Notes under the pieces: generated by a model
What the model was told of the DNA's origin: nothing
Database searches by the model: none
What the model saw: the letters and a program-made list of their open reading frames with translations, nothing else
Shown here: one piece after another, positions 3,641-54,510 of the stretch
How positions within the stretch are numbered: position 1 is the first letter of the stretch
Layout of the letters: the number at the start of each line of letters is the position of its first letter
Assembly (NCBI RefSeq): GCF_019649055.1
Contig: NW_026570309.1
Span: forward strand, 372,001-436,000
DNA length: 64,000 nucleotides
Direction: 5' to 3'
From: Paramacrobiotus metropolitanus
Lineage: Eukaryota; Tardigrada; Eutardigrada; Parachela; Macrobiotidae
Made by a program: the position numbers and the translations under genes

Positions 3641-3779
3641 CAGTACAATCCCAGTCACCTCCAGTCGAATGAAAAGTTTCATTTCACCTGCTCATCGCAA
3701 AGTTACTGCCCGCACCGCCGTAATACTTTTTTTCCTGCTGTAAGAAGTGTTGGTTTTCCTGCACCCCGGGTTTAGCGCT

Positions 3780-30470: not shown

Positions 30471-33400
30471 TCTTGATCTCTCGCGAGTGATCTCTGTTCT
30501 CTGGGAGATTTTTCATCTTCCTAGATCTGCATCTTGGATTTCGGAATGTTTAGCCGTTCCGCGCGCCGTGTTCCGCGCACCTGCGACAGCTGATATCTAG
30601 CTGCCATCTGTGCGATGGTTCAGCTCTTCGTTTATCGCTCTCTAAGTCTGTCAGGCTGTCACCATCGGTAACTGGCTATATCCTCGCCAGAATTTCAGAT
30701 CAGCTCTTTATGCGTCATCAAAATCCACACCGCATCCGAAGAGCCAAGCCGAAGCGAACAGCTGCACTCAGCTTGAACGCGTTACGTCGCTCACACGTTA
30801 AGCGGCCCTCCAGAGGACCATCAGTGCGAAGGATAAAGCGCACACGATCAACCACTGCTCAGCGGACAAGTTACAGCCGTCATCAATTATCTGCTGTGGC
30901 TAGCCCAACGGGAAGACAGGCCACGAAGGAAAGCTGCACTACTTTTGACGCGAGCCCTTCATTGGACGGCAGGACAGGCCTCCAGCTACGGTGGCGACTC
31001 GCACCACGACGTCAGCCAAGCCACCGACGACGGCAACACAGGCCTTCAACTACGGCTGCATCTCCACCGGACAGCAAAGAAGGACCCTAACTACGGCCGC
31101 TCTACCTCCGGCAGCGACAACCCCCTTCCAACGGCCGGGCACCAAGCTAGGCCACTGGCGAGAGCTGCACCATCCTCGGACGGCAAGGTACCGCACCTCC
31201 CTTGGACGGCTGACAGGCTCGTTACCCTCGGCGGCCCACACATCCGACAGCAAGCTAGGGATCTAGCAAGGGCACTTTTCTCGGACACCAGACAGGTCCC
31301 TACTCAACGCAGGCGTGCACCTTCGACGGCCGGTGTGCCCCGCCAACGTCGGCTGCACCTTCCTCGGACGGCAGACAGGCCCCTTGGCTACGGCGGCGCC
31401 CTCCTCCGACGGCAAGCAGGCACAGCAACAACGGACGCATCTTCTTCGGACGGCAGACCGGTCCGCTAGCAACGGTTGCGCCTTCCTCGGACGGCTTACC
31501 AGGCCACCAACTTAGGCTGCGCCTACCTCCGACGGCAAGCAGACTCCCAGCGGCGGTTGCAACTTCCTCGGAGGGTATACCAGGCCACCAACTTCGGCTG
31601 CGCCTTCCTCCCACGGAAAGCAGACCCCCAGCTTTCCTCGGACGGCAAACAGGCCCCCTAGCAACGGCGGCGCCCTCCTCCGACGGCAAAGTAGGCCCAC
31701 CAGTGACGGCTGCATCTTCCCCGGACGGCAGTTAGGCCCCCTTCCAGCGGCGGCGCCCTCCTCCGACGGCAAGTAGGCCTAATGACCCACCAATGGCGGC
31801 TGCTTCTTCCTCGGACGGTAGTCAGGCCCCCTTTCAACGGCGGCGCCCTCCTCCGACGGCAAGTAGACCTAATGGCCACAAATGACGGCTGCATCTTCCT
31901 CGGACGGCAGACAGGCCCCCTTTCAACGGCGGCGCCCTCCTCCGACGGCAAGTAGGCCCACCAGTGACGGCTGCATCTTCCTCGGACGGCAGACAGGCCC
32001 CCTTCCAGCGGCGGCGCCCTCCTTCGACGGCAAGTAGGCTTAATGGCCCACCAATGTGGCTGCATCTTCCTCGGACGGCAGACAGGCCCCTTGGCTACGG
32101 CGGCGCCCTCCTCCGACGGCAAGCAGGCACAGCAACAACGGACGCATCTTCTTCGGACGGCAGACCGGTCCGCTAGCAACGGTTGCGCCTTCCTCGGACG
32201 GTTTACCAGGCCACCAACTTAGGCTGCGCCTACCTCCGACGGCAAGCAGACTCCCAGCGGCGGTTGCAACTTCCTCGGAGGGTATACCAGGCCACCAACT
32301 TCGGCTGCGCCTTCCTCCCACGGGAAGCAGACCCCCAGCTTTCCTCGGACGGCAAACAGGCCCCCTAGCAACGGCGGCGCCCTCCTCCGACGGCAAAGTA
32401 GGCCCACCAGTGACGGCTGCATCTTCCCCGGACGGCAGTTAGGCCCCCTTCCAGCGGCGGCGCCCTCCTCCGACGGCAAGTAGGCCTAATGGCCCACCAA
32501 TGGCGGCTGCTTCTTCCTCGGACGGTAGTCAGGCCCCCTTTCAACGGCGGCGCCCTCCTCCGACGGCAAGTAGGCTTAATGGCCCACCAATATCGGCTGC
32601 ATCTTCTTCGGACGGCAGGCATGCCCCCTTCCAACGGCGGCGCCCTCCTCCGACGGCAAGTAGGCCCACCAGTGACGGCTGCATCTTCCTCGGACGGCTG
32701 ACAGGCCCCCCTTCCAGCGGCGGCGCCCTCCTCCGACGGCAAGTAGGCCCACCAGTGACGGCTGCATCTTCCTCGGACGAGAAACATGCCACTTAGCAAC
32801 GGCGGCGCCCTCCTCCGACGGCAAGTAGGCCCACCAGTGACGGCTGCATCTTCCTCGGACGGCAGACAGGCCCCCTTTCAACGGCGGCGCCCTCCTCCGA
32901 CGGCAAGTAGGCCCACCAGTGACGGCTGCATCTTCCTCGGACGGCAGACAGGCCCCCTTCAAGCGGCGGCGCCATCCTCCGACGGCAAGTAGGCTTAATG
33001 GCCCACCAATGTGGCTGCATCTTCCTCGGACGGCAGACAGGCCCCCTTCCAGAGGCGGCGCCCTCCTCCGACGACAAGTAGACCTAATGGCCCACAAGTG
33101 ACGGCTGCATCTTCCTCGGACGGCAGACAGGCCCCCTTTCAACGGTGGCGCCCTCCACCGACGGCAAGTAGGCCTACCAGTGACGGCTGCATCTTCCTCG
33201 GACGACAGACAGGCCCCCTCCCAGCGGCGGCGCCCTCCTCCGACGGCAAGTAGGCTTAATGGCCCACCAATGACGGCTGCATCTTCCTCGGACGGCAGAC
33301 AGGCCCCCTTCCAACCGCGGCGCCCTCCTCCGACGGCAAATAGGTTCAGTGGCCCATCAATGTCGGCTGCGCCTTCCTTCGACGGCAAGCAGACCCTTAG

Positions 33401-33982
33401 CGGCGGTTGCACTTTCCTCGGACGGCATACAAGGCCATCACCTCCGGTGCGCCTACCTCCGACAACAAGCAGACCCACCAGCGAGGCTGCAACTTCCTCG
33501 GACGGGAGTCAGGTCTCTTAGCAACGACGGCGCCCTCTTCCTACTCCCAGCAGACCCCTAGCGGCGGTTGCACCTTCCTCGACGGCATACTAGGCGATCA
33601 CCTCCGGTGCGCCTGCCTCCGACGGCACGCAGACCCCAAGCGGCGGTTGCGTTTTTATTTTCCATTTTCCGGTGGTTGCAGTTTCCTCGGGCGGCATGCA
33701 AGGCCAACACCTCCTGTGCGCCTACTCCGACGGCAAGCAGACCCCCAGCGGCGGTAGCACCTTGCGCGGAAAAACCTGACCGGATCCTGACATACCGCGG
33801 ATCCTGCCATACCACGTCGGGATCATCACGCTACACCGCTCCGTATCGGCAACGTAACGACGCCGTAAAGATAGCCGAATTTTGCCTACTCCCAACGGAA
33901 CTCCGAATCTTCTCCAAATACATCCGCAGAACCGTGCAAACTGCTGCATCCATCCCTATATTGGGTTGTTTGGGGTTTGTTT
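30471..33982. repeat. 3.5-kb repeat-rich insert within the first LTR-like copy
   Basis: From about 31,340 to 33,750 the sequence is a tandem array with a unit of about 82-95 bp, containing CTTCCTCGGACGGCAGACAG and GGCGCCCTCCTCCGACGGCA. The first 870 bp are Arg/Pro/Ser-coding low-complexity sequence without a motif. Long open frames on both strands are by-products of the GC-rich period. The insert replaces 56 bp (34,425-34,480) of the compact LTR-like copy. Confidence 0.75.
31347..32577. repeat. Higher-order duplication inside the array (707-bp offset)
   Basis: About 520 bp at 31,347-31,870 recur almost unchanged at 32,054-32,577, including irregular units such as AGACCGGTCCGCTAGCAACGG. Shared irregular units show a segmental duplication rather than independent repeat drift. 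Confidence 0.8.
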
Positions 33983-35829: not shown

Positions 35830-36900
35830 AACGAGTGACGGAGTTAACACTACTTTTTGAAAGCCCGTTAGGGAACGAATGACCGAATTACCACTACTGT
35901 CCGTGCACAGAGCCCGTTAGGTCAGCGAGTGACCGAGCTACCACTGCTTTCCGGCGCAAAAAGCCCGTTCGGTGAACGAGTGACTAAGCTACTACCACTG
36001 TCCGTGCACAGAGCCTGGGAGGTGAGCGGCACCGAGCTGTCACTACTGTTCAGTGTACAAAGTCCGTTAGGGGAGCGGGTGATCGAGCTGTCACTACTGT
36101 ACAAAGCCCGTTAGGGAACCAGTGAATGAGCTAACACTACTGTCCGGTCCAGATCGCCCGGTAGGTGAGCGAGTGACCGAGCTGACACTACTTTTCAGTG
36201 TAAAAAGCCCGTTAGGGAACGAGTGACCGAGTTATCACGACTGTCCGTGCACAGAGACCGGTAGGTGAGCGGGTGACCGCGCTGTCACTAACGTCCGGCG
36301 CAGAAAGTCCGTTAGGTCAGCGGGCGACCGGACTACCATTGCTGCCCGGCGCAAAAAGCCCGTTCGGCGAACGAGTGACCGAGCTACCACTGCTGTCCGG
36401 TGCAGAGAGCCCGTTACTGTTAGGTGATACGAGTGACCGAGCTTTCACTACTATCCGGCGTAGAAAGCCCGTTAGAGAACGAGTGGCTAATCTACCACTG
36501 CCGTCCGTGCACAGAGCCGGTACGCGAGCGGGTGACCGAGCTGTCACTACTGCCAAGGGAACAAAGCCCGTTCGGTGATGGAGTGACTGAGCTACCACTA
36601 CTGTCCGTGCACAGAGCCCCGGAGGTGAGCGGGTGACCGAGCTGTCACTACTGTCCAGTGTACAAAGTCCGTTAGGGAACAAGTGACCGAGTTACCACTA
36701 CGGTCCGGTGCAGAGAGCCCGGTAGTTGAACGAGCGACCAAGCTGTCATTATCGTATAGTGTACTTGAGTGACCGAGCTACCACTACTGGCCGGCGAACG
36801 GAACCGGTTAGATAAGCAAGTAATCGAGCTACCGCTACTGACCGGACATACACCACTGGGCACACACCACTTTCCAGTGAAAAGAACCAGTGAAGTGACG
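35830..36900 (+). repeat. 50-bp satellite array, forward orientation
   Basis: Degenerate units of about 50-57 bp read GTGACCGAGCTACCACTACT then GTCC.GTGCA.AGAGCCCGTTAGG. About 20 units are present. Open frames through the array are repeat by-products. The same satellite occurs inverted at 53,270-54,510. Confidence 0.85.
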
Positions 36901-37172
36901 AGTCATCGAACTAGTGATCCAGTGCATTATCACTGTCTCGAAATTCACACCTTATTATGGACTGATATTTCGGCTTTCTTTTCGGGTAAGGGATATCGTA
37001 AAATTATCTGTATGTGCAGCCAAAGGGAATGCTTTCAAGGTTGAGAGAATCATGAGCTGATTTTCATAGAAAATTCGGGTTTGCTTTTTTGTATCTACCG
37101 ATCATGTTTCGACGAAATATAGATTTTATCTAATAAATAATCATTCAAATTCAAATAAAATGGCCATGGACC

Positions 37173-37210
37173 ACAAGAAACGCGGAGGCGAAGCCGAGGC
37201 TGTTTCTTGT
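37173..37210. repeat. 38-bp repeat, left copy of an inverted pair
   Basis: ACAAGAAACGCGGAGGCGAA through GTTTCTTGT. Its own ends, CAAGAAAC and GTTTCTTG, are complementary. The inverted copy lies at 52,938-52,975, on the other side of the disrupted gene. Confidence 0.8.
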
Positions 37211-37444
37211 ATATAACAATGCGGTACTATTGCCGACTAAACAAAATTAGACTCCATAGTACAGTAATCTTGAACGTACATATTAAGTTTCTTTCTGCCA
37301 AAGGAACCTTGATCTCATCCATAACTGTCTGTATACGACAGCGTAGAAGCTAATTTATAACGGAATGGGCAAGTTCTGCAGTTTAATCCGTAGTAGCAAC
37401 GGGGAGAAAAGCCGACATCAATAGGAAGTTGACACAGCCGTTTG

Positions 37445-38209: not shown

Positions 38210-38340
38210 AGAAGAAACAGTATACTGTATAAACATAAGATGGCGTCGGTTACGTCATAAACTGGAGTTGGGAGCTGGACTTTCTAGTTACAATTCCCGG
38301 TTGTACTTTGTACTTGCAGCTCCCAACTGCAGCATATGAT
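38210..38340 (+). repeat. Left terminal inverted repeat of the Polinton
   Basis: About 131 bp matching the reverse complement of 51,394-51,524 with few differences. Inside it, CTGGAGTTGGGAGCTG (38,262-38,277) and CAGCTCCCAACTGCAG (38,317-38,332) form an internal hairpin with a 39-nt spacer, also present in the right repeat. Confidence 0.9.
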
Positions 38341-38869
38341 TCAGCACAACTGCAGCATATGATTACTGCATATGTACACTGTATAGAAGTACACTAACTA
38401 ATTTACTCACTTACTGATAATCACACACACACACGCTGGTGCATCTGCTGTGCATACCTCAAGGATGCTCGCAGCCCAGATGCAGCTACCTGTGCAGCCG
38501 TGTTGCACGCGTGCAAGTGGTTGTTTACATTCTTTTACCGCATGGAGCGGCATTGGCACATTAGCGCAACTGGCTCGTCAGCGATGGTGCTGCATACCAT
38601 GCGCGTCTCTTATTGATTGAAAACACTTATAGTAATGCTGCGCACTTATAATATACAAATTATTTGTCAACTTATCGAGTAGTTTAATTGCTTAACTGGA
38701 TTGTGCACGGCTTATATATAATTGTGAAACTTGACATGCGCCCAATGGTTGGAGTACTGTACGGATGGATGGATGGTACTGTACTATATGGATACTACTG
38801 TACACTGTACAGTTATATTGGTTTACTTTCACTGCTTGATTCAACAAGTTGTTTACATTCTTTTGCACT

Positions 38870-39683: not shown

Positions 39684-40211
39684 TTAGGTTCCTAATAACA
39701 GGCGCAATTCGTTTTCAGCAGTATGAAGAGTATCAGCATCTTTTGCACCTAATAAATTAATTTTTCCAGAATGGAAAATCATCGCCGTACAACCTTGAAG
39801 CCGGACTCGCATGGCCGGAAATATTTCAGGTTCAAACATGGCATCAGCTTTTGCTCTTATTGAGTTGTATAATTTCTCTAAACTAAGAAATTTCCCAAAA
39901 TTGAAAGTGGCGACAATGTTAACAATTCTTGGATTCTTTAACGATGCTTTTTGATAGCCGTATTTTTGCAGTTTCCGATAATAGTGATCCAATAACGCGA
40001 GAGCATCACTGATGGACTGTGCACCATTAACTGTGATCTTGCCGTTGCGGTACACTTGGCAGTGCGATTTGTAAGGACGAATGGAACGGAGAAGAAGCCC
40101 GGAAAATTTATGTGGTGCATAATGAGAAAGCGGATCGCGTTCGGATAAGCTGGGTAAGTCAATTGCGCAGCCAAGGTCAGCAGTTGCAACAACGTTAGTT
40201 ATTTTCGCCAT
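39684..40211 (-). CDS. TATA-binding-protein-like protein encoded by the Polinton (175 aa)
   Basis: Two tandem, related halves have the TBP fold signature. The second half contains IVNIVATFNFG, FEPEIFPAM and AMIFHSGKINLLGAK, matching the TBP core pattern (YEPELFPG..R, LIF.SGK..LTGAK). The first half contains VVATADLGCAIDL, YAPHKFSGLLLR, VYRNGKITVNGA and LQKYGY. Three of the four phenylalanine positions that kink TATA DNA in TBP appear conserved; the fourth is Tyr (VYRNGK). Length equals the bare TBP core, with no N-terminal extension. Its ATG overlaps the end of the neighbouring nuclease-like gene by 17 nt, suggesting joint transcription. It may redirect host RNA polymerase to element promoters; that role is inferred. 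Confidence 0.85.
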   Translation of the reverse strand: MAKITNVVATADLGCAIDLPSLSERDPLSHYAPHKFSGLLLRSIRPYKSHCQVYRNGKITVNGAQSISDALALLDHYYRKLQKYGYQKASLKNPRIVNIVATFNFGKFLSLEKLYNSIRAKADAMFEPEIFPAMRVRLQGCTAMIFHSGKINLLGAKDADTLHTAENELRLLLGT

Positions 40212-40653
40212 TCAGCCAATTTGCAAATGTCTCCGCTTTTGAAAGCGTTGTTTGTGGTAATGAAGTAAGCTCCTTAAACTTCGGGCACCCAATGTCTTCA
40301 AGATTAAACACTTCAGGCAAATAATTTTCCAAAATCTTTTGCTTTTCCAATCCTTTGGCAAAAAACGTCAAACGCGCAGGTCGTTCACCAATAAGCTCCA
40401 GCATATCCTGAATCGCCCTGGCGATGTCCAAGTATAAATAATCTCCACGATTATGCCAGACAAGTCCGTGTGAGTGACGCGATTGGCTCCTAAATTCAAC
40501 GCGGTAACGATTAAAGTGGGATGGAATGGTGAATGTGTAGCACCTGCTAACACTAGTTGGGCAATCACAAAATGCCAGCTGTTTTATAAGCCGTTGGGAG
40601 CCAGCGATAAACCAATCAATATCTAAGACAACCCTCCGCTTTGAAGTCTCCAT
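40195..40653 (-). CDS. Nuclease-like conserved protein of the Polinton (152 aa)
   Basis: The protein opens with VVLDIDWFIAG (an Asp-x-Asp pair) and contains HSHGLVWHNRGDYLY, FFAKGLEKQKILE and VFNLEDIGCPKFKEL. This pattern occurs in a family of 150-200 aa proteins common in arthropod genomes and mobile elements. I suspect an RNase H/DEDD-type nuclease fold from the spaced acidic residues, but cannot confirm it. The frame is intact. It is transcribed divergently from the ATPase gene, whose start lies 41 bp away, and shares its 3' end with the TBP-like gene. Confidence 0.55.
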   Translation of the reverse strand: METSKRRVVLDIDWFIAGSQRLIKQLAFCDCPTSVSRCYTFTIPSHFNRYRVEFRSQSRHSHGLVWHNRGDYLYLDIARAIQDMLELIGERPARLTFFAKGLEKQKILENYLPEVFNLEDIGCPKFKELTSLPQTTLSKAETFANWLNGENN

Positions 40654-40693
40654 TCTGTTATCGGTACGCTAGCAATAGCTCCGCCCTTTGGAA

Positions 40694-41389
40694 ATGGATT
40701 CCTTAAATAGGTATCCGCGCACGACAGCTGATTTGAGATTCCGACTACCCGCTTCAGTCCTTGTTGTGGGGCCAACGACTTCGGGGAAAACGACATATGT
40801 GTCAAAATTAATTATGGAGCGCGATAAATTATTTGACCAACCATTTGGACGAATTATTTTGGTGTACGGAGAAATGCAGCCAGCCTACGAAGTGCTTCAG
40901 CGCAAAGTCCCTTGGATTGAACTGACAAAAAATATTCAACAAATTGTGGAGGATGAAAATTATTTTGATGGTAAACAAAATATTTTGTTGATACTGGATA
41001 ACGTGGCAAGTGGCTTGGTGAAAAATGAGCATTTGGCTAAACTCTTCACTCAAAAAGTACACCATAAACGGCTTTGTGTATTTCTATTATTCAATAACCT
41101 ATATAAACAAGGGTCTGCTATGCGAGACGTGCATCTTAATGCACAATATCTTATACTGTTCAAAAATAATCGTGATGTGAACCAAATCAAGATTCTAGAA
41201 AGGCAGACTGGTTTAAAACATCTCAGCGGAGCTTACGAGGAAGTCGGCCAGGAACCATTTCAACCTCTCATTTTGGATATGAAACCGGACACACCTGCCT
41301 ATTTAAGGATTCGTTCAGCAATATTACCGGGAGAGTTGACTAAAATTTACATTAATCCACATACGACAAACTTGCCCAAGAATGTGTGA
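40694..41389 (+). CDS. Genome-packaging ATPase (FtsK/HerA type) of the Polinton
   Basis: About 231 aa with a Walker A motif GPTTSGKTT near residue 30 and a Walker B motif NILLILDN near residue 96, in the arrangement of A32/FtsK-HerA packaging ATPases that pump DNA into jelly-roll capsids. The frame is open end to end. The ATG at 40,694 is used; the frame extends two codons upstream without ATG. It overlaps the next small gene by eight bases (ATG at 41,382). Such ATPases are one of the defining Polinton genes. Confidence 0.9.
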   Translation: MDSLNRYPRTTADLRFRLPASVLVVGPTTSGKTTYVSKLIMERDKLFDQPFGRIILVYGEMQPAYEVLQRKVPWIELTKNIQQIVEDENYFDGKQNILLILDNVASGLVKNEHLAKLFTQKVHHKRLCVFLLFNNLYKQGSAMRDVHLNAQYLILFKNNRDVNQIKILERQTGLKHLSGAYEEVGQEPFQPLILDMKPDTPAYLRIRSAILPGELTKIYINPHTTNLPKNV

Positions 41390-41710
41390 TCAGATTTTAA
41401 AAGACTTTGCACCGTTTCTCCTTACCCTGCGATCGCTGAAACCCAAGCAGCGTCGTTTTCTTTTGGAAAATATTTCGAAACGACAACTTCGCTGTTTTGA
41501 AGAAATTTGTTTGAATTTGGTAAAGAATTCAGTGCCTCTTACCACCGATCAGCTAAAGGTGTGTCAGCGTTGGCGTCGACCATTATAGCTGATTGCCCTC
41601 AAAAAATATCCTTTACGAAGCAAGAGGGAAATTTTATTACAGCGCGGAGGATTCTTACCTGCGGTTCTACCTGTATTGGCAGCTGTTTTGGGAACTGCCT
41701 TACTGAAATG
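41382..41710 (+). pseudogene. Small conserved Polinton protein with in-frame stop
   Basis: Codons from 41,382 give a helical, basic protein (FLLENISKRQLRCFEEICLN) that stops at a TAG at 41,586. The same frame continues after the TAG into a basic stretch, then QRGGFLPAVLPVLAAVLG and a TGA at about 41,708, a hydrophobic tail known from small proteins next to the ATPase in Polintons and adintoviruses. A nonsense mutation is therefore likely. Role unknown; possibly a minor virion component. Confidence 0.55.
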
Positions 41711-42202
41711 AAACCGGAAGTGCATTATATTGTTCCCGCGAGCGAAATGAAAAGACTTGCAAGTGACACGGTTGGTCGTATTGTAACGGATGTCCAATTA
41801 CAACAGCAGCCTACTGAAGTTGTGGATATTGTAAAACTGGACGATTTGATGAGAGATATAATTTCACGGAATACGCTAAGCGAATGGGAGAAAGCGGAAC
41901 TGTTATCAAGAAACTTGGCTCGCTTTTGGCGCTGAAAGAGTCGGCGTTCGGCCCTGACCAAATGGTTATTCCGCCTCCAGCATCTGTGCCCCCATTCCAG
42001 TACAACTATTAAAGAAGCCGTGGGTACCCCTAATATGCCTGATCGTATGTTAGATGCTTTCCCTCCTATTCCACTTGCACCCCCGGCAAAACGCAAGCGT
42101 GCAAAGCGAGAAGTATTTGATGAAAACACTTTACAAATCGAAGGTCCCATCGGTTCAAGAACCAAATCCCAGTTCAACTGGATGACTATTAATAACAAAT
42201 GA
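41708..42202 (+). pseudogene. Conserved Polinton ORF with two frameshifts
   Basis: The ATG at 41,708 overlaps the preceding TGA. The first part (MKPEVHYIVPASEMKRL) runs to a stop at 41,935; homologous-looking sequence continues in a second frame (FGPDQMVIPPPASVPPF) and a third (AFPPIPLAPPAKRKRAKREV) up to 42,202. Single-base losses in runs of T near 41,928 and 41,989 would explain this. The Pro- and Lys/Arg-rich tail could bind DNA or protein. Function not known. Confidence 0.5.
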
Positions 42203-42277: not shown

Positions 42278-43246
42278 ATGGATCAAGCAGTAGCGACGAC
42301 GAATACGATGGCCAATCTACTGCTACGACAAGCGTATCTGAACCCTCAGCACCCGGGCAGCTTAACAGGGATTCAAAAGTTTCGCAGCCACTTTCCACAA
42401 GCACCAAACTATCAACAAACGCGGGAACAGCTGGAGCATCTGGATCCATATACAGTCCACAAATCTCGACGCAAAAGGTTCAAAAGAAACCCCGGAGTTG
42501 TCTCAAACCTAGCGGAGCAATATCAAGCCGATCTGGCAGACATATCAAAATATGCGAAGCAGAACAAAGGATACCGTTGGATATTGTTTGTGATCGACGT
42601 CTTCAGCAAGAAAGTGAGCTGTCAACTACTAAAGAATAAAAGCGGTCTAGAAGTAAAACTTGGGTTGGAAAAGGTGTTTGCAGAACTCGGAGCTCCCATT
42701 AAATTGCAAACGGACAAAGGTCTTGAATTTTACAATAAGGATGTTAAGAGTTTTTTGACAGCCCAAAAGGTTTTTTTGTTCTCTTCTGAAAATAAAGCAA
42801 TCAAAGCATCCTTAGCTGAAAATGGCATACGCAATCTCAAGAAACGAATATGGAAATTATTTCGACACCGACAGTCTAAAGTGTACTGGGACGTTCTGGG
42901 AGATTTGGTAAACAGTTACAACAACGCAATTCATTCTTCGCATAAAGTCACGCCTAATGAGGTAAGCCAGTCCAATTCTCTGCAAATATTCAATCGACTA
43001 TATGCAGAATTATTATTGGGAAAGCAGAAAAAGCCAAAGTACAGCGTAGGTGACACAGTACGAGTAGCCATCGACAAAACACTTTTTGAAAAAGGATATG
43101 AGTCAACATTTAAGGAGGAAATTTACAAGATACACCAAGTATTACCACAACAGCCCGAGCCCCTCTACGTATTACTGGATGAAGACGGGGACTTAATTCG
43201 CGGAAATATTACGAAGCCGAACTCAGTCGTGTCAGAAATGGCTCAT
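42278..43246 (+). pseudogene. Retroviral-type integrase of the Polinton, frameshifted near its end
   Basis: The rve-type core is clear: QADLADI with Asp85, LQTDKGLEF with Asp146, and ASLAENGIRN with Glu181, the D,D-35-E triad of integrases that insert the element. An SH3-like C-terminal part with YSVGDTVRVA follows. Near 43,203 one base appears lost: the expected ending resumes in another frame (YEAELSRVRNGS then TAA at 43,244). As a result the open frame fuses with the next gene and runs to 43,762. The first 60 codons are weakly conserved and the true start is unsure. Confidence 0.8.
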
Positions 43247-44165
43247 AATAGCTTTTATGTCACGCTTCCATCTGATGCCTGTATGCAACAGTTCCCAAAG
43301 AATAATGCAGCTGAATGGACCACAAAGTTAAAGAGCGTGATATCGCTACCGGGACAATGGGAAATGGCATTGGTGGAAATACAGTATCCTAATTCAATGT
43401 ACAATTTACCCAGTCCCCAAACGTTGCACGTTGACCAAATTACTTCTATGGATAGCAACGGTGTTTTCGCTATGGAGAGGGACACAATTACGGTACCTGC
43501 AGGGATCTATGAGAAAAGTGACATCATTAATTTTATCAACAGTAAAGTACCACGGTTAAAGCCATTTCGCGATTCTACAGCGAAAGAACAGGCGGCTTTC
43601 CAACTAGAATTATTTGCAACCGAGCCCAAGCTCAAAGTGAAATTTCCCAGCGTACGTGTTTTTCTGGATTTTCCTCCCTCATCTTTGCATCTATCCCGTA
43701 TGCTTGGATTTAAAGAACGACGATTTTCTGCTGCACAGTCTGAACAATATGAAAATTTTTAATGGAAAAACGAATTTTGCTTCCGCAGCTACAACACTGT
43801 CCGACCAGCTGAAAGCCCTGGCAGAGTTGCAACTGTTGGAGACGTCTATAACAATGACAGCAGATAAGCCCGTAAATATGCACATTGGGAACCAGTCAAT
43901 TTTGTCTACTGCAACAAGTGCGACTACAATATTGTGGGCGATGAAACTATGCAGCTTTTGCGCGCTTTCCCCATTAAAGCAAGTGTTCCTCGCTTCGAAA
44001 TTGTTTCCGAAAGGTTTGAGGATCCACATTATTTACCTGTTTTATACGATCGACTGGACACTATTGATATCAACATTGCAACTGATCTCGGAGAAGCGGC
44101 AATTTTTCAGACTGGAAAGTCAATGGTAAAGCTGCATTTCCGCCCCATTCAGTATTACTATCGCT
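43237..44165 (+). pseudogene. Penton-like/minor capsid Polinton protein, two frameshifts
   Basis: The ATG at 43,237 overlaps the original integrase stop. The start MAHNSFYVTLPSDAC, then FTTKL-like AEWTTKLKSVISLPG and WEMALVEIQYPNSMYN, is the hallmark of a structural protein found in nearly all Polintons, thought to be the single-jelly-roll minor capsid protein. The frame breaks near 43,757 (run of T) and again near 43,905; the last part, KLHFRPI, ends at 44,165. As it stands no full-length protein could be made. Confidence 0.7.
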
Positions 44166-44268
44166 AAAAAATGCCCGTAATCCTCTTTGAGCCGTCACCA
44201 TCGTTCTATCTGGATTTATTTGCGGGGCCGCCACGGGCGCTAGTAGCCAGCACGGCTATGGAGCCGTC

Positions 44269-44589
44269 ATGACACGCTATCGCGGGAGTTTAATGCAAAA
44301 TGGCAGCGGATTTATGCTACCTAATTTCCTGCGCGCAATGTTTAGTAAATTAGCGCATTTTGCTGCCCCGGTTATTAAAGCAGCGGCACCACATGCCAGA
44401 GCAGCAATGGAAGCAGCAAAGCCCCACTTACGCGACGCAGCGACAACAGTTTTAAGTGAAACATCCAAGAAGGTAGGAGAGAAAATTTCGGAAGCGTTAA
44501 CTGCGCAACCTCAACAGCAAGGAGGCATCAAACGGCTCAAGCAGCAGCACAAGAGGACAAAAGATAAAGAAACCTTCCTTCCGACTTAA
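44269..44589 (+). CDS. Adenovirus pVI/pX-like small virion protein (106 aa)
   Basis: The protein has an N-terminal RYRGSLMQNGSGFM, an amphipathic Ala-rich helix (APVIKAAAPHARAAMEAA) and a basic Lys/Gln-rich tail. This composition and the position between the penton-like and capsid genes fit the small membrane-active or DNA-binding virion proteins of Polintons. The upstream frame is open back to a TGA but has no earlier ATG. The frame is intact. Assignment rests on composition and gene order, not on a motif. Confidence 0.5.
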   Translation: MTRYRGSLMQNGSGFMLPNFLRAMFSKLAHFAAPVIKAAAPHARAAMEAAKPHLRDAATTVLSETSKKVGEKISEALTAQPQQQGGIKRLKQQHKRTKDKETFLPT

Positions 44590-44635
44590 ACGGCTTAAGC
44601 GGATTCCCCAAGAGAATTTGAGGACGCATTTTAAA

Positions 44636-45966
44636 ATGGCTTTTATTTTGGAAGGAAGCGTGCCAGCTATGCAGGTCGAGTCGGATTTATTCTCCGTTCC
44701 GGCCACTCTAGCGGATTTTGTGCGGACAGAAGAAGAACGCATTCTACCAACATCAGGGCAAACAGAAGAAATTAGTTCTGGAGAAATTTCCTTTTACATT
44801 CCCCTTCAACGTCGGCGCTGCTAGTGCTACCGGAAATTACGCTAGAAATGGATATTGCAATCAAAAAGCAAATTGCAGGACTTGGTGCGGCTACGCATAT
44901 TGAAAACACGGATCTGGTAGCACCAGTGAACTTGATTGCGCATTCTATATTCAGCTCGGTAGAGGTAACAATGGCCAACCGCCTGATAACTAATTCCACC
45001 CCATTATATGCCTACCGAGCGTACTTGGAAAATTTGTTGGGGTACACACCGGCTGCCCTAAAAAGCCAGGCAACAAGTGCTGGATTTTATATAGACACTC
45101 CCGGGTACCTAGAAGATCATGCCAATAACGCTGGAGAAGTAACGCGAAAAGCTATGTTTGTGACCAACGAGTACGTCCCGTTCAGCGCCAAATTATGTAC
45201 GGACATTTTTCAGCAGGGAAAAATTTGATCACCGGTGTACCGCTACATGTGCGCCTCATTTTGAATAAGCCGGAATTCTACCTGCGTTCATATGCCAATC
45301 TTCCAGTGGATACCTTTAAAGCATACATTCGCAATCCGCGGTTGTACGTCAAACGCTTTGTGCCTAATCCGGCATATTTGTCTGCGCTTACTGCCCAATT
45401 ATCGACAAAGACTGTGAAATACCCTATTGAGCGAGTGTGTATGCGTGTTAATGATATTGGTATGATTCAGAGCACAGTGCTGGCTAATTTACATATTGGA
45501 GCAGTACCCAAATGTGTTTTGTGGGATTTGTAAAAGCTCGAGTTTTCACGGGCTGCGCCGAGGTAATCCGTTTAACTTTGAACATTTCAATCTCAACTAT
45601 ATAAGTGTCGAAGTCGACGGACAGTCGTATCCCGCACAAGCCTACCGACCAAATTTCGCCACGGGTGATTATTTGCAATCATATGACGGTCTGTTGGAGA
45701 CGCTCGGCCGCTTGCACGCACCGGACGGGGCGCTGCCTTTCGACCGTAAAGCATTTGCGGAAGGATTTGCTATTTGGGGATTCGATCTGACACCTTCACG
45801 GACAGGCCGGGGACCGATGAGCACCGTGCGCCAAGGAAATCTATCAATCCGCCTGCAGTTCGCCGCCCAATTAACTGAACCAATTATGGCCATTACGATG
45901 ATGGTGTGGGATAATATTATTGAAGTCAATTCACATCGCCAGCTAATTGCGGATTTTACAGCGTAA
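44636..45966 (+). pseudogene. Major capsid protein (double jelly roll) of the Polinton, frameshifted
   Basis: The start MAFILEGSVPAMQVESDLF is the usual N terminus of Polinton major capsid proteins. Further recognisable segments are LVAPVNLIAHSIFSSVEVT, YAYRAYLENLLGY, VPLHVRLILNKPEFYL and FDLTPSRTGRG. They lie in three to four pieces in different frames, with breaks near 44,801, 45,200 and 45,495. Total span is about 443 codons, the normal size. The gene is therefore inactive in this copy unless the breaks are sequencing errors. Confidence 0.8.
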
Positions 45967-46145: not shown

Positions 46146-46204
46146 CTAGGACAAAGTGTAAAAAAAAAATTCAGATTTTATTTTGAATGCAGATCGGCAC
46201 TAAA

Positions 46205-46711
46205 ATGGACACTGCTGAAATCGACCACGTGCTACGTTCAAGTACCGTGACGAAAGACGCTTTTATTGGTGTATTTGCTGCGGACATGTTACCACCGTCC
46301 CTGCCAATGAAGCTGCCATGGGCATGCGTTGTCAATACTGACGAAGCTGCAAAGCCAGGCTCGCATTGGTTGGCGTTCTACCAGGACGTCCCGGGAAAAT
46401 TGGAATATTTTGACTCTTATGGTCACGAACCGAGATTTTACGGCATCCATATTGAAAGTTTTTGCAAGAACGCCGAGTTAGTTATTTCGCAAGCGCATCG
46501 TTTACAAATGGAATGGAGTACCGTATGCGGACAGTACTGCTGTGCTGCATCCGTTGTGGAGCTGTATTCATTTCCGGTGAGGACCGCACTGAACAAAAAA
46601 GGATCGCGGATATTAACATGCCTGACATTTTTAGCGCATGAATCATTGAGCGATCTGTTTGGAAATTCAGATGATAACAAAAATGCTGTAGCGGAATTTA
46701 TTCATATATAA
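46205..46711 (+). CDS. Adenain-type cysteine protease of the Polinton (168 aa)
   Basis: The catalytic elements of the adenovirus-type maturation protease (C5/C48 fold) are in order: His in GSHWLAFY, Asp in LEYFDSYGHE, and the Gln-equivalent/Cys region STVCGQYCCA. The protein ends near the usual length of about 170-200 aa and the frame is intact. The ATG at 46,205 has a better context (AAAATGG) than the one at 46,187. It would cleave capsid precursors during virion maturation, which is why Polintons are believed able to form particles. Confidence 0.9.
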   Translation: MDTAEIDHVLRSSTVTKDAFIGVFAADMLPPSLPMKLPWACVVNTDEAAKPGSHWLAFYQDVPGKLEYFDSYGHEPRFYGIHIESFCKNAELVISQAHRLQMEWSTVCGQYCCAASVVELYSFPVRTALNKKGSRILTCLTFLAHESLSDLFGNSDDNKNAVAEFIHI

Positions 46712-46774
46712 TCTGAGTATCTTGGGTGCATCTTTGAGACTAGTAAAATCACGTTGCCAGAGCTCGTCTTTACG

Positions 46775-49700
46775 ATGACGCAAGTACCTGATCGTGTACA
46801 GGGCAACTCTAACGCCTGTACTAGTAACCCACAGTTTGCTGATACCGCACTTTTCAATCATGATTATGCTCTTCTTGATCATAATTATACTGTACCACGA
46901 GCTGATCTGCCAGCTTTGAATATAGCTGACGAAGTCGATCCAGACTTGAATGACATTAAAGATTATTATGTGCTCGAAAATATCGGAGCAAAATATTCCC
47001 AGAAATTTTCAGTTTCGTTCGAAACTTACAAATGTACAGTGACGGGGCTGGATAATCTATCGTTCAAGTATGCTGTTAAAACGATAACACTCGTTTTGAA
47101 AGATATTCTGGAGAGTGTGATTGCTGCGATTCCAGCGCATAACCTGGTGCGAATCCGCATGTATCAAAATGCTCTGCAGTATCCAATTTGGATGCCACCT
47201 ATTCGGCGGGACCAAATAACAACTGAACGGTGGATGACGACAATAAGGCGGATTCTAAACTCTAATCAGGCTTTTCTGCTAGACGAATCATTTGAACTGT
47301 CAGTCCAGCACACTGATTTGCCATCCGGATCATGCAGAAAAAATGTATCAAAATTGTTGCAGCGGATTTTAGACAACAAAAGATGTATTACCCAGATTCG
47401 AAATACGGACTGTTTGTGTATGGCCAGGGCTATAGTTGTGGCACAAGCGCATGCAGATGGCGACAAAGAGCTGTACACAAAGCTTTACCGAACCAAAAGT
47501 TGCAAGACCAGAAGACAAAAGAATTATTGTTGACTGCCAACCTGCCAAACAGAGAATTCAACGTGCAAGATATTCCCCGCTTTGAAGAAGTTTTACCGAA
47601 TTATCAGTTTATTGTGGTATCTGTGGATCATGGAAATTCTATCGTCTACTGCGGCGCCTACTGCGAAAAGCGAATTATGCTGCTGCATCACGATCAACAT
47701 TTTGATGTTTTAACATCTTTACCGGCCTATTTTGAGCACCACTATTACTGTTACCGTTGCATGAAAGGCTACGATCAAAGACAGTATCACCGCTGCGAGT
47801 TCAAGTGCCACCAGTGTTTGTCTGCAACTTGCAAAATGAATAAGCAAGAAACCATACACTGTCTGGACTGTAACCGCGATTTCTATGGGCAAGATTGTTT
47901 TGACAGACACCAAGCTGGGAGCAGCACCATCTGCGCAAATTTTTCATTTGCCGTGAGTGTAAAACCTTTGTCTCTATGGTAAATCGCCGTATGAAGACCA
48001 ATTACGATACAATTCATGGTGAGGACAATGACCAGGACCACGATATTGCTGAGGAAATCGAACTAGATGTTGACGATCAGCAACATCGATGTGGTGAGTT
48101 TTTTGTGCGACTTGCTCGTTATTCTATATGCCGGAGGAAAACCATGTGTGTTATATGAAACCCGTGGAATTTACGGATAAAGAAAAGGCCAAGCACCATA
48201 ACGACAAGCTGGCATACTTTGACCTGGAAACATATCAAGACGAGAGTGGAGAATTTAAAGTCAACCTAGCGGTGATCGCGACAAAAAATGAAAAATTTAT
48301 TCTTCCAGAAAACGGTAATATTAACGGCGACATTTCACAAGAACTTGGCGATTTCATTTTCAGTGAGCGTTTCCGTGGCTACACATTTATGGCGCACAAT
48401 TTGAAGGTAGCGAAAGTCAACACGTTAAGTAACTTCTTTATTAAATAAATTGATAATTTATTTTTCAGGGATTTGATGGATACTTCATTTTGAATTATCT
48501 CGTGAAAAACGGCGTTATTCCACGTCCGCTTATTTTCAACGGGAGCAAGGTTATGCAGATGGACGTGCCCAAACTCAAAATAAAATTTCGTGACTCTATG
48601 AACTATGTACCATCATCGTTAAAAATTTTGCGAAAGCATTTGGTTTGCAAGAAACCAAAGGAGATTTCCCACACAAACTTAATAAGCCTGAAAACTGGAA
48701 TAAAATAATTGCTTGGCCCGATCGTCATGACTATGGCTATCAGTCTATGAAAAGAAAGAACGAAAGCGCTTCATGAAATGGTACCGCAAAGAGCGACGCC
48801 GTCACAGGAACAAATTCGACTTTAATGCACACTTTATCAAGTAAGCTAAACCCTTATGCTATTTACAGAATCGAACTTATCCGATTCGTTTTAGGTATTG
48901 CTCACAAGATGTCCTCATTTTGCAACAAGCGTGCGAAAAATTTCGAGCGCTTTTCCAACAGGTAACCGATGGATTATGCCCATTTGCGTCTGGACTAACC
49001 ACACCCGGCATGTGCAATTACTTTTGGAGAGCGCGAATGCTGAAGGAAAACCAAATTGCGTTGATCGGCCCTCCTGGTCAGGGCAAAAAGTCATCTGTCA
49101 AAGGAGAGCGTTGGCTACGCTGGATTGAAATGGAAAATGATGTAAAATTGCAAAAGAGCATCGAATCGGTCACTGGACTGTGGATGGTTTTGATCGGGAT
49201 ACAAAAACCGCTTACGAGTTTTAGGTTAGTCAGCTCGATATAAATGTTATCGATCACATTCAAAACGCAATTCACCTTCAATGTTTTTGTGCAGGATGTA
49301 TGTGGCACGGCTGCAGCGAATGCACAACAAAAGCACGCTGCATCCCTTTCTGAAACGGCCAATGGAGGAAGTCAACAAAGCAACTGCCTTACGCCTTGAA
49401 GCTATCAAAACTATGGGCTATTCCGTAGTTTCGATCTGGGAACACGACTATGATAGCCGGCTCACTACTGACCTGGAATTTCAGAAAATAATTCAGTTGA
49501 CCGGTATTGAAGAACCTATGCACCCCCGAGACGCATTTACTGGTGGCAGGGCAAACGCTATCAAGTTGTACCACAAGTGCGATCCTGGAGAAAAAATCTA
49601 TTCGCTCGACGTTATCAGCGAATACCCTTATATTAACAAAAATCTACCTTATCCGGTGGGACCGCCTGTTATCATTACTAAAGATTTTCCGCCTGTGGAG

Positions 49701-51053
49701 AGTATTTTTGGAATAATTAAATGTCGCGTCATTCCTCCACCGTCGTTGTTTTTACCGGTGCTACCTTACAAAACTGATAAACTGACTTTTCCTTTATGCG
49801 CTAAATGCGTGACGGAACGCGTAAACGAACCATGTTCTCACGATGATGAGGACAGGGCTCTGGAAGGAACTTGGTGCACTCCAGAAATTCATCGAGCATT
49901 AGAAGTTGGCTATCGTATCGATAAAATATACTCGGCTTGGCACTATCCAGAACAAATGCAGTATTTATTCAGAGAATACATTGACCTGTTTTGAAGCTGA
50001 AAACGGAAGCTTCTGGATATCCACCACAGTGTCAAACGGAAGATGAAAAAGACAGATATATTCAAGAATTCCTTGCTAAAGAAAATATTCTACTGGATAA
50101 AAGAATATTGCGAAAAACGACGCATTGAGAGCTCTTTGCAAGCTTATGCTAAATAGTTTTTGGTACACATGTGAATTTATTTAATTTGTGCATGTTCATT
50201 ATTTTTACGCTCATTGCAGGGGAAAATTTGGTCAACAGGAAGACCGATCCAACACGGATATGGTGGAAAAGAAAGAGGTATTCCATGATTACTTGTTTTC
50301 TAACAAGTACGAAGTCGCCGGGTTCGATTTGGTCACCGATGAAGTTATGGCAGTTCAATACCGCTCCAAGAAGGACTACATTGCGACGAGCAAAAAAACC
50401 AATGTTGTTATCGCAGCTTTTACGACTGCGTACGCACGGCTACACTTATTAAAATTCATGGAAATGGTTGGAGACCGTTTGTTATACCACGATACAGGTG
50501 AAGGCGCGAAACAGTATTATCGGCAAATTGGCTCATCCACTTCTTTATTTTGCAGACAGCATTTTCTACATCCATAGAGACGATTTGCCCGATCCACCAA
50601 CGGGAACGTGCTTGGGTGATTTGTCCTCGTCTTTACAGCCTGACGAGTACATTGACGAATTTGTAGCGCTTGGTAAAAGAATAATTATCTAGATAATAAT
50701 ATGCGAGCAACTTAAAATGTTAATTCTTTGTTGTCCCAGGACCAAAAAGCTATGCTTACCGGACAAATACTGGATGTGAAACGATAAAAGTCAAGGGATT
50801 TACGTTGACACGGCAAGCGAAAAAACAGCTAAACCTGGAAAGCCTGAAAGAGATGCTACTGGAAAGCCTGGCACCACCGGACCAGCCAAGCGGAATTACC
50901 GTGAATTATCCGTTCAACATAACACGCAATAAGCGCAAGCTGGAAGTTTCGTCGGCGGAAATTAACAAACGATTTAAACTTACTTACTCAAAACGTAGAA
51001 TTGTTGACTCTGATTTTAACACTCGCCCATGGGGTGATGTTTCGATTGAGTAA
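46775..51053 (+). pseudogene. Protein-primed family B DNA polymerase of the Polinton, with six introns and several frameshifts
   Basis: An N-terminal domain (46,775-47,500) and a Cys/His-rich region (47,740-47,980) precede the exonuclease motifs YFDLETYQDE (Exo I), MAHN..GFDGYFIL (Exo II) and YCSQDVLIL (Exo III). Polymerase motif A is SLDVISEYPY (Glu where Leu is usual), motif B NSFWGKFG, motif C YHDTDS. Six short GT-AG introns fit frame and motifs: 48,407-48,468, 48,841-48,894, 49,225-49,294, 50,163-50,219, 50,498-50,555 and 50,673-50,739. Introns 1, 4 and 5 split Exo II, motif B and motif C. Frameshifts occur near 47,510, 47,930, 48,130 and 48,630 and between 48,740 and 50,000. The family copies the element using a terminal protein as primer. 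Confidence 0.85.
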
Positions 51054-51393
51054 ATCATCAACTTCCAGTGCGGTGCAATTGTTAATAAAGGTCCTGACAC
51101 TGTGGCTTGCTCCGAAAAATGCTTCCAGCAGTATTATAAGAATTAACATAACAATAATGCAAGTCCCCACCACGGCTTCGCAAAAGTTTTTTTTACACAC
51201 AATGCGCGCCATTGTAACAAAAGTCACTTGTTTTTTTTTTCTAGATTTTATGCGTTCCGTGGTGCCTTTAATACTTACTTCCTCCCGAAAGACTGTAATT
51301 AGTTAACTATTGTATAAAATTTTAACTACATATATATATATATATATAGTATTATAGTATGCACTATGGACATACACTATACAATTGTGATGA

Positions 51394-51524
51394 CTCATAT
51401 TCTGGAGTTGGGAGCTGTAGTCATAAAGTCCAACCGGGAATTGCAGCTGGAAAGTGCAGCTCCCAACTCCAGTTTATGACGTAACCGACGCCATTTTATG
51501 TTTATACAATATACTGTTTCTTCT
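51394..51524 (-). repeat. Right terminal inverted repeat of the Polinton
   Basis: Reverse complement of 38,210-38,340 with few mismatches. The internal hairpin CTGGAGTTGGGAGCTG / CAGCTCCCAACTCCAG is present and here nearly perfect. Confidence 0.9.
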
Positions 51525-51583: not shown

Positions 51584-52675
51584 TGTAGCCGGCAGGAAGG
51601 TTGACGGGTTGATGGTTGACGCTCAATGAAGGTCATCAACCTTTCTGCCAGAGCTCATCAACCTTTCTCTAAAGGTCATCAACCTTTCTGTAAAGGTTAT
51701 CAACCTTTCTGAAAGGTCATCAACCTTTCTGTAAAGGTTATCAACCTTCTAAAAGGTCATCAACTTTTCTGTAAAGGTCATCAACCTTTCTGCCGGCGGT
51801 GTCTATTGATCTTATTGTGCTCATTGTACTTTATTGTGCAACACAATTATTTCGCTGTCGGTTAAGACATAATATTATATCGACTGTTCGTAGTTCGTAC
51901 GTTGCGTCTGCATGTTTGATCGTAGGTAAGCGGTTTAACTTATAAGGCAATACCGATGGTGAAAACTGTGACAGACAACTTTTGCAGTTGCGCAAAAGCT
52001 TGATGTGATGAATGGGTGCCGACACCGGTTCGGCAGAAAGGTTGATGCGTCAATGATTCTGTACTTGTCATATTATTTTTTTCGTGGCAGTTGTGCTCAT
52101 TGTAAGTCACTGTTGTCGTCAGTTCAAGGTGGATTCAGTGAACTGCTTCGCTTGCTTATTCAACATCCAAGCCAGGTGTTTAAAAAAACCATTAATTAAT
52201 TTGCTTTTCAACGAGCTAGAGGAACGATAAGCAAATGGAGCTACAATGGGTGCATTGGCGTCGTTGATAGGAGTAATGGATACCGTTGGGAGATTCATGG
52301 ATAACCTCTGGCAGAAAGATGGATGTCCTATGGCAGAAAACTGGATGTCCTCTCTAGTAAGGCAGATGGTCTCCGGCAGAAAGTAAATAGCCTTTCCAAA
52401 AATGTGAATAATCCTCGGCAAAGATGTGGATTACCACTGGTGGAAAGGTGGATCACTTCGGCAGAAAGGTTGATAACCTAAAGAAAAAGGTTGATGACCT
52501 TTAGAGAAAGGTTGATGAGCTCTGGCAGAAAGGTTGATGACCTTTAGAGAAAGGTTGATGAGCTCTGGAAGAAAGGTTGATGACCTTTAGAGAAAGGTTG
52601 ATGCGCTCTGGCAGAAAGGTTGATGACCTTCATTGAACGTCAACCATCAACCTGTCAACCTTTCTGCCGGCTACA
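51584..52675. mobile_element. 1.09-kb fold-back element with repeat-built arms
   Basis: Termini are TGTAGCCGGC and its reverse complement, flanked by 6-bp duplications TGCGAT (51,578-51,583 and 52,676-52,681). Arms of about 215 bp (51,584-51,800 and 52,455-52,675) are inverted copies made of tandem units of about 25 bp reading AGGTCATCAACCTTTCTG. The middle 650 bp hold degenerate versions such as ATGTCCT.TGGCAGAAA and no transposase. It is a non-autonomous fold-back transposon; the class is uncertain. Confidence 0.85.
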
Positions 52676-52790: not shown

Positions 52791-52937
52791 TCGCAGCACT
52801 ACGCGATTTCACGATTGCTGCCCGAGTGCCTCCAACAAACAACCACGGAAATTCTGAAAATGGCTGGATTTAAACGTAGATGTTCAACTGCAGGAGGCTT
52901 CAGCAACTAACTAACATGTTTGCGTAATATGGACATT

Positions 52938-52975
52938 ACAAGAAACAGCCTCGGCTTCGCCTCCGCGTTTCTTGG
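52938..52975. repeat. 38-bp repeat, right copy of an inverted pair
   Basis: ACAAGAAACAGCCTCGGCTT through GTTTCTTGG; reverse complement of 37,173-37,210. Confidence 0.8.
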
Positions 52976-53269
52976 GTTCTAAACTCCTTGGCCGGTTTAC
53001 GGATTGTTAACTTAGAACGGATAAATCTGAAGAGCCCGACAACAAAAATTTTATAAAAAAAATGGATGTTTTGGTTTCGTGCAGTCGAACGCAGTTACTT
53101 TGACTTTACAGATCATTTTTTGTTAAATTTTCTTAGCGAAAAACCATCCGGATCTAATCACCCACGAGAGTATCACATTGCAAACTAAAAGGACGCTAAG
53201 ACTAGACAGTGGTGCTAGATAGGTCACCCATTAAGAACTTAGCAGGGCCTGCTCTATTTTGCTCAGTAA

Positions 53270-54510
53270 TATTGCAGTTTGGTCATACGTTCACCTAACG
53301 GGTTCTGTGCACTGGATAGCTTTGGTAGCTCGGTCACCCACCTACCTAACGGGATCTATGCAAAGGACAGTACTCGTAACTCGGTCACTAGATCACTTAA
53401 CGGAGTTTATGCGCTGGACAGTAGTGCTAGCTCGCTCATTAGATCACTTAACGGAGTTTGTGCACTGGACAGTAGTGGTACCTCGGTCACTAGATCACTT
53501 AACGGAGTTCGTGCATTGGACAGTAGTGGTAGCTCGGTCACGCGTTCACCTAACGGGCTCTGTGCACTGGACAGTATTGGTAGCTTGGTCACCCATCTAC
53601 CTAACGGGATCTATGCACTGGACAGTATTGATAGCTCGGTCACCCATCTATCTAACGGGATCTATGCATTGGACAGTAGTGGTAGCTCGGTCACGCCTTC
53701 CCCTAACGGGCTCTGTGCACTGGACAGTATTGGTAGCTCGGTCATCCATCTTCCTAACGGGATCTAAGCACTGGACAGTAGTGGTAGCTCGGTCACGCGT
53801 TCACCTAACGGGCTCTGTGCACTGGACAGTAATGGTAGCTTGGTCACCCATCTACCTAACGGGATCTATGCACTGGACAGTATTGGTAGCTCGGTCACCC
53901 ATCTACCTAACGGGATCTATGCACTGGACAGTAGTGGTAGCTCGGTCACGCCTTCACCTAACGGGCTCTGTGCACTGGACAGTATTGGTAGCTCGGTCAT
54001 CCATCTACCTAACGGGCTCTGTGCGCTGGGCAGTATTGGTAGCTCGGTCACCCATCTTCCTAACGAGATCTATGCACTGGACAGTAGTGGTATCTCGGTA
54101 CTCTTTCACCTAACGGGCTCTGGGCACTGGACAGTGGTGGTAGCTCGGTCACGTACTCACCTAGCGATTTTTTGACGCACTCAATCACTAGGTGAGTAAC
54201 TGACCGAGCTCAACCTGTCCAGTAACAAATATCGCTAGGTAAAGAGAAAAATCGCTAGGTGAGGATGTGACCCTGCTACAACTACTGTCCAGTGCACAGA
54301 GCCCGGTAGGTGAGCAAGAGCAAAGCCCGCTCGATGATTCACTCACCTAGAAATTCCGCTCAGTGGGCAGTAATGGTGTTTCGGTCACTCACTTGTCTAG
54401 TGATTTTTCTTACTGGTCAGTGGTGGTAGCTCGGTCACCCACTCACCTAGAGATTCCGCTCAGTGGTCGGTGATAGTGTTTTGGTCACTCACTCGTCCAG
54501 TGATTTTTCG
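53270..54510 (-). repeat. 50-bp satellite array, inverted orientation
   Basis: About 24 units of about 50 bp read GGTAGCTCGGTCACCCATCT then ACCTAACGGGATCTATGCACTG. They are the reverse complement of the array at 35,830-36,900. A 284-codon open frame through the array is a by-product of a period divisible by three. Units become degenerate after 54,180. Confidence 0.85.

Follow-up and report, generated by a model that had tools for sequence, protein, structure and literature searches.

The window analysed here (64,000 nucleotides of the tardigrade Paramacrobiotus metropolitanus, contig NW_026570309.1) contains a Polinton-like element carrying a gene for a TATA-binding protein (TBP). This TBP is almost certainly of virus type and has long belonged to the core genes of a large Polinton lineage. 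The best overall explanation, which we consider probable, is that an old core TBP of Polintons acts as a promoter factor of altered specificity. The promoter-choice reading has two leads, a remodelled DNA-reading face of the protein and a conserved TATTTAAGG box. The following features were found in the element (positions are those of the window).

35862..36750: left outer region of inverted repeat, with 51-bp tandem units
37170..37211: left inverted segment of 42 bases, paired with 52937-52977 on the right
38210..38352, plus strand: inner left inverted-repeat arm, 89% identical to the right arm
39684..40211, minus strand: TBP gene, 175 aa, two repeats (open reading frame, Pfam match, predicted fold)
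40195..40653, minus strand: gene preceding TBP, 152 aa, predicted exonuclease-like (DEDD-type) fold, 17-base overlap with TBP (open reading frame, model)
40688..41389, plus strand: putative A32/FtsK-like packaging ATPase, in divergent orientation to the TBP unit (Pox_A32 0.0078, FtsK 0.03, both below the Pfam cut-offs)
40701..40709, minus strand: TATTTAAGG box whose start is 56 bases ahead of the ATG of the gene preceding TBP (sequence match)
41300..41308, plus strand: TATTTAAGG box in the ATPase codons TAT TTA AGG (Y-L-R), with nucleotide-level constraint across lineages (codon test)
41501..41932, plus strand: conserved element gene c5 (similarity across elements)
42278..43762, plus strand: integrase (rve), 494 aa (Pfam)
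44191..44586, plus strand: conserved element gene c11 (similarity across elements)
44501..45963, plus strand: putative capsid-like gene in four overlapping broken frames (label from its place in the gene order)
46187..46711, plus strand: adenovirus-type cysteine protease (PF00770, 5.1e-6)
46712..51050, plus strand: DNA polymerase B in seven broken frames (one fragment by Pfam, the rest grouped by similarity to other copies)
51382..51524, minus strand: inner right inverted-repeat arm, 89% identical to the left arm
53280..54160: outer right inverted-repeat region, 51-bp tandem units

An earlier note, made from the letters of the window, had described a two-repeat TBP of 175 residues, and this description was borne out by the intact frame, the PF00352 match and the structure model. 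The Pfam match scores 124 bits against a cut-off of 22.9, and its two stretches correspond to both repeats. The saddle fold of TBP, proposed there as a check by structure prediction, is predicted confidently for the 175-aa protein; solved TBPs are only 26-32% identical to the model. We take F99, F116, F190 and F207 (yeast numbering) to be the DNA-kinking phenylalanines, and N69 and N159 to be the central asparagines. The window TBP retains F99, F190, F207, N69 and N159 and has tyrosine instead of phenylalanine at position 116, in agreement with the claim of three kinking phenylalanines out of four.

The carrier is Polinton-like, as claimed: an rve integrase, an adenovirus-type protease, PolB and inverted repeats surround the TBP gene. 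The genes are flanked by three nested inverted segments, that is, by terminal inverted repeats, and the element is about 18 kb long if the outer repeats are its ends. PolB of a related element (L023) has a Pfam match of 1.6e-49. The capsid-like gene is conserved, encodes 482 aa, and is situated at the place expected for the major capsid protein; Pfam and PDB sequence searches with it produced no match. The exonuclease-like gene likewise had no match in the PDB sequence search; its model (pLDDT 80, built from 4 rows) has weak Foldseek matches to RNase AS and DexA, and the database search found only P0039-P0041 as homologs. Judged from equal lengths only, P0017 and P0039 (each on 1728 bases, lgn) and P0040 and P0055 (1439 bases, jgi) would share contigs pairwise, which suggests that the pairing of the exonuclease-like gene with TBP is kept elsewhere. 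A GC-rich tandem-repeat array with units of 41 and about 80-90 bp was observed beside the element (31343-33650), and 21-bp tandem repeats in opposite orientation were observed outside the right inner arm (51629-51792 and 52463-52630).

The genome (169.8 Mb, 533 contigs) was searched with the window TBP (query P0001). The best 150 of 295 candidates were scored, and 147 places were used, three second pieces of copies being omitted. For the window's ATPase, 144 places among the roughly 150 matches listed were used, again without second pieces, so that all place counts are lower bounds and partners may be missing. The earlier note's view of a single element is too narrow: there are at least 147 TBP-related places, and at least 107 of these have an ATPase place no farther than 12 kb away. 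Conversely, 109 of the 144 ATPase places among the matches listed have a TBP within 12 kb (counting the 147 places and 16 more found by the Pfam model only), the chance expectation for such proximity being about 2%. Among the best 150 of 295 candidates, 19 places are 90-100% identical to the window TBP, 18 of them without a stop in the matched part; the other places are 31-76% identical, most of them stop-free and many partial. At least two of the 40 TBPs with no listed ATPase (in L016 and L023) adjoin an ATPase that is in pieces.

Three arrangements were distinguished among the matches listed. In type I, the type of the window, TBP and ATPase are adjacent and divergent (39 cases). In type II both genes are on the same strand, with the ATPase 3.7-11.5 kb upstream of TBP (49 cases). 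In type III TBP is on the same strand just before the ATPase (15 cases and 6 found by the Pfam model only). Only 4 of 107 TBP-ATPase pairs among the matches listed are outside these types. In 18 window-family elements with both genes, 17 TBPs have no internal stops versus only 9 ATPases that are full-length and uninterrupted, the ATPase being a third longer. The type III TBPs at L027:4620-5741 and L025:4436-5461 have C-terminal extensions of about 160-190 aa with no Pfam match. At L021:6532-7791 (plus strand) a cargo protein was observed in which an ADP-ribosylglycohydrolase (4.5e-29) is fused to a BIR (inhibitor of apoptosis) domain (2.6e-13); the ORF cluster linked to it has 16 loci, counted by cluster membership and not by the presence of both domains at each locus.

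A second gene accompanies TBP in type II. A PC4-like gene was found in 48 of 49 type II elements, on the opposite strand and at most 3.5 kb from TBP, as judged by similarity to one member; examples of this coactivator gene near the TBP unit are L018:7199-8155 and L014:3414-4349. All six type II members scanned match PF02229 (best 1.9e-8), and the profile match to PC4 in the PDB is 0.004. Weaker PC4-like relatives are present within 10 kb in 8 of 39 type I elements and in none of 21 type III elements.

The age of the TBP gene was assessed by phylogeny. The careful tree has 72 rows; viral TBPs, some fragments, near-identical copies and the distant hits P0074-P0103 are not among them. Seven of the rows are cellular: yeast, human, the host, Sulfolobus, P0073 (Salpingoeca) and the database proteins P0036 and P0038, which were assigned to the cellular set because they grouped with cellular TBPs in a quick tree. 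Two clades result, both with 100/99 support: the 23 element TBPs together with 42 database relatives, and the cellular rows. In the quick tree, which has 91 rows, the 13 TBPs that stem from viral contigs, three of them short pieces, are on the cellular side and outside the Polinton clade. These 13 generic TBPs (L053-L065) come from IMG/VR contigs of 17-175 kb. No relative of the element TBP was found by searches of viral contigs (with P0001 and with the 29-row alignment A2) or of genome contigs (with A2). None of the database relatives exceeds 59% identity to the 40 TBPs of this genome that were compared, except for one named for this species: P0067, TATA-box-binding protein-like [Paramacrobiotus metropolitanus], is 71% identical to the L014 TBP over 113 residues. 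As far as these sequences go, the TBP family seems to extend beyond this assembly.

TBP and ATPase trees agree, with a Mantel r of 0.71 for 26 elements and of 0.84 for the 17 elements of types I and II; in both cases none of 2000 permutations was as high. The dN/dS ratio in close TBP pairs, where defined, is 0.04-0.29. Eight of the youngest window-family copies have six non-synonymous and three synonymous changes, too few to show constraint. Since the element TBPs form one clade, diverge together with the ATPase and are under purifying selection, the TBP gene is older than the split of the sampled families and has been maintained since. Of the two explanations that had been offered for the intact frame, recent capture or selection, the latter is thus favoured by the dN/dS of close pairs in the lineage, whereas the former disagrees with the single separate clade and the concordant trees.

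In the host itself, TBP is of the ordinary animal kind (E 2e-87 against human TBP chains) and has an apparent intron. The phylogenetic check suggested earlier places the element TBPs apart from it and not nested among host TBP; a recent host paralog is excluded by these trees. In the host TBP exon (L009, about 3100-3740) there is a one-base slip in the assembly, and therefore single frame breaks in elements may also be assembly errors.

The DNA-reading face was analysed in yeast numbering by alignment. The list of 20 face positions, which we take to be the minor-groove contacts of TBP, was drawn up after the first alignment had been seen. Most element TBPs retain N69, N159, F99, F190 and F207. 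At positions 114, 116, 118, 122, 124, 213 and 215, which are L, F, S, V, T, V and T in cellular TBPs, the TBPs of types I and II and of the first database set have nearly invariant Q114, Y116, N118, T122, N124, N213 and L215. Four cellular TBPs agree at 66 positions; at 11 of these the sets just named have switched to another residue fixed at 90% or more, and 7 of the 11 are among the 20 face positions (Fisher p 0.014). The same residues prevail in the 23 TBPs of a second database search (P0042-P0064, counted without the fragments P0065 and P0066): Q114 in 22, Y116 in 22, N118 in 23, T122 in 22, N124 in 23, N213 in 23 and L215 in 20. Type III TBPs mostly have Q114, N118, N124 and L215 in common with types I and II, and have I122 and mostly F116 and V213; distant hits from P0071 onward do not have the full residue signature. 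E186 is lost in type II and in more than half of the database set. The window copy itself departs from the canonical minor-groove residues by L114Q, V122T, T124N, V213N and T215L, and because residues of canonical minor-groove reading are changed, its specificity cannot be assumed to be canonical.

The earlier note had also proposed to look for a TATA variant shared by the upstream regions, and a conserved TATTTAAGG box and enriched TATAAA and TTAAGG words were indeed found. In 167 non-redundant upstream regions, TATAAA occurs in 29 sequences (9.7 in shuffled sequences, 6 in the coding control), TTAAGG words in 20 (6.0 and 2, respectively), TATTAAGG in 7 (0.1 in shuffles) and TATTTAAG in 6 (0.4). 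The canonical form of the TATA box is TATATAAA; canonical TATA was observed in front of 6 of 9 type III TBP genes and, in 3 of 6 type II cases, in front of the gene that opens the TBP unit. Many boxes are situated within the preceding reading frame, which confounds a scan of upstream words only, and therefore a test at the codon level was made.

The ATPase gene of types I and II keeps the nucleotide string TATTTAAGG more strictly than its protein requires, a TATA-like box within coding sequence. The Y-L-R tripeptide is written TAT TTA AGG in 7 of 12 type I/II lineages and TGT TTA AGG in one more. This codon triplet is the best of 83 three-codon ATPase windows in the 12 lineages (z 12.5 versus 2.8 for the next non-overlapping one), the z-scores assuming that sequence pairs are independent. 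When all gene clusters were scanned with other row sets, its z was 5.9 (9 rows, from which type II ATPases were absent), as against 6.0 for a box-less stretch of TBP (22 rows) and values near 4 for several stretches with no TATA-like string; the latter two are taken as noise of related sequences. Since a box-less window reaches a similar z, more weight is given to genome-wide counts. The string TATTTAAGGNTNMGNTC has 97 matches versus 5 for the backwards control; 76 of the 97 are inside a listed ATPase, and of the 21 that are not, 13 are within 12 kb of a TBP. A degenerate pattern for Y-L-R-[ILV]-R-S-H, which allows Phe in place of Leu and Ser in place of Arg as well, fits 105 genome places; 70 of the 100 listed, which include places not confirmed as ATPases, are exactly TATTTAAGG, whereas about 2% would be expected from ATPase codon use. 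Many copies of the box are related sequences, so that these counts are not independent events. The arginine codon two residues past the box varies between CGT, CGA, CGC, AGA, CGG and once AGT in 16 distinct strings. The box precedes the ATG of the next gene by 56-98 bases in the four lineages read, one of them with TGTTTAAGG.

The box is not universal. Exact TATTTAAGG is absent from the ATPase site in 5 of 12 lineages and in 30 of the 100 listed places, and some lineages have TACTTACGT or TATTTGCGT where it would stand. At three ATPase sites (C5:1244331, C7:333455, C16:1300412) the same peptide is written TACTTACGT, which is either a second version of the box or its loss. Exact TATTTAAGG was also absent from six type II stretches of 10 kb around TBP (L010, L011, L012, L014, L015, L018), and in the window as a whole TWTTWAAGG occurs about as often as expected (4 times versus 4.23). 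The related boxes of type III run into coding sequence, and no signal emerged there at the codon level, with few usable three-codon windows in some genes. In seven type III loci (L019, L021, L022, L024, L025, L027, L028) TATTAAGG is situated exactly 100 bases before the second ORF of the integrase cluster, and in three type III loci it precedes the capsid-like gene by 78-84 bases; both sites are coding and may reflect protein constraint.

On balance, we favour the element TBP being a promoter factor of altered specificity. It would bind and bend core promoters of the element, including the TATTTAAGG box that precedes the gene following the ATPase, and by recruiting TFIIB and RNA polymerase II from the host it would make transcription of element genes independent of host TBP/TFIID. 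The first step of such a cascade may fall to host TBP, at the canonical TATA found in front of the TBP gene in type III and, in half of the type II cases read, in front of the gene that opens the TBP unit; the PC4-like protein of type II may assist. The fuller version, put forward tentatively, is a private core-promoter code of animal Polintons, in which the element TBP with its rewritten face (and PC4 in one family) would read boxes of the TATTTAAGG type, some embedded in coding sequence, and a temporal cascade would lead from host TBP, acting at a canonical TATA on the TBP gene, to element TBP acting on the other genes.

Several other explanations have to be weighed. The box could be read by host TBP/TFIID, with the element TBP reading another sequence or acting at another step. 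Canonical TBPs are able to use boxes of a similar kind; PMC5842622 names TATTTAAA for the TBP of Entamoeba. Canonical TATA is also enriched upstream of element genes (29 of 167 regions versus 9.7 in shuffled ones), as reading by host TBP would have it. The box is kept in elements whose TBP has changed its DNA face in concert, which may speak against host TBP as the reader, and we hold this explanation to be unlikely. Interference with the host is rather improbable: here the element TBP would compete for TFIIB/TFIIA or DNA, shut down host genes, or escape host control, and would choose no promoters of its own. Such a role agrees with the stirrup residues E186, P187 and E188 being kept in the window family and type III, and with the basic helix residues K133 and K138 being lost in most groups, all of them presumably partner contacts, but it leaves unexplained the fixed new residues of the DNA face and the constrained box.

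Similarly improbable is a DNA-bending protein that serves replication, packaging or integration and not transcription. TBP does adjoin the packaging ATPase in types I and III and follows the exonuclease-like gene in the window; in type II, however, it is 3.7-11.5 kb from the ATPase and near the PC4-like gene, and giant-virus TBPs are discussed as transcription factors in PMC12085832. Finally, a recent duplicate of host TBP picked up by the element has a negligible chance of being the answer: family membership is all that speaks for it, whereas host TBP groups with human and yeast, the element clade is separate (100/99), and identity to solved TBPs is 26-32%. Promoter choice with altered specificity remains our preferred reading. 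An old, selected TBP, intact in numerous copies and common to three families, would mean that Polintons also act on transcription initiation. The face switches and the constrained box provide a concrete pair of protein and DNA, possibly a natural altered-specificity TBP, and bear on gene start in small DNA viruses of animal genomes and on the divergence of the core-promoter code. If the private code is real, an element of about 18 kb would contain a complete virus-specific pair of TBP and box working with host RNA polymerase II.

Among known systems, the element TBP resembles cellular TBP (PF00352) in its two repeats, saddle fold, three of four kinking phenylalanines and both central asparagines, and differs from it by the low identity to solved TBPs, by seven fixed face switches and by its separate clade. 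Viral TBPs as such are already known. PMC10132985 reports TBP in 59% of mirusvirus genomes, and PMC12085832 treats TBPs of giant viruses. The element TBP is similarly virus-encoded, and BFVD has many such folds; however, its structural matches to the viral folds in BFVD are weaker (TM up to 0.80, 8-22% identity, rows with E < 0.001), and no named one is a Polinton. Polintons are usually described by their set of replication and capsid genes, and a 6-bp target-site duplication is a trait of Polintons/Mavericks. The window element resembles them in its rve integrase, adenovirus-type protease, PolB, putative ATPase and inverted repeats. The TBP-bearing elements differ from the described Polintons/Mavericks by the recurrent TBP, the PC4-like gene of type II and the conserved box embedded in coding sequence, for which no report was found in the open-licence papers searched. 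What we regard as established is an old, selected TBP as part of a Polinton lineage in one animal genome, with relatives in other public sequence collections.
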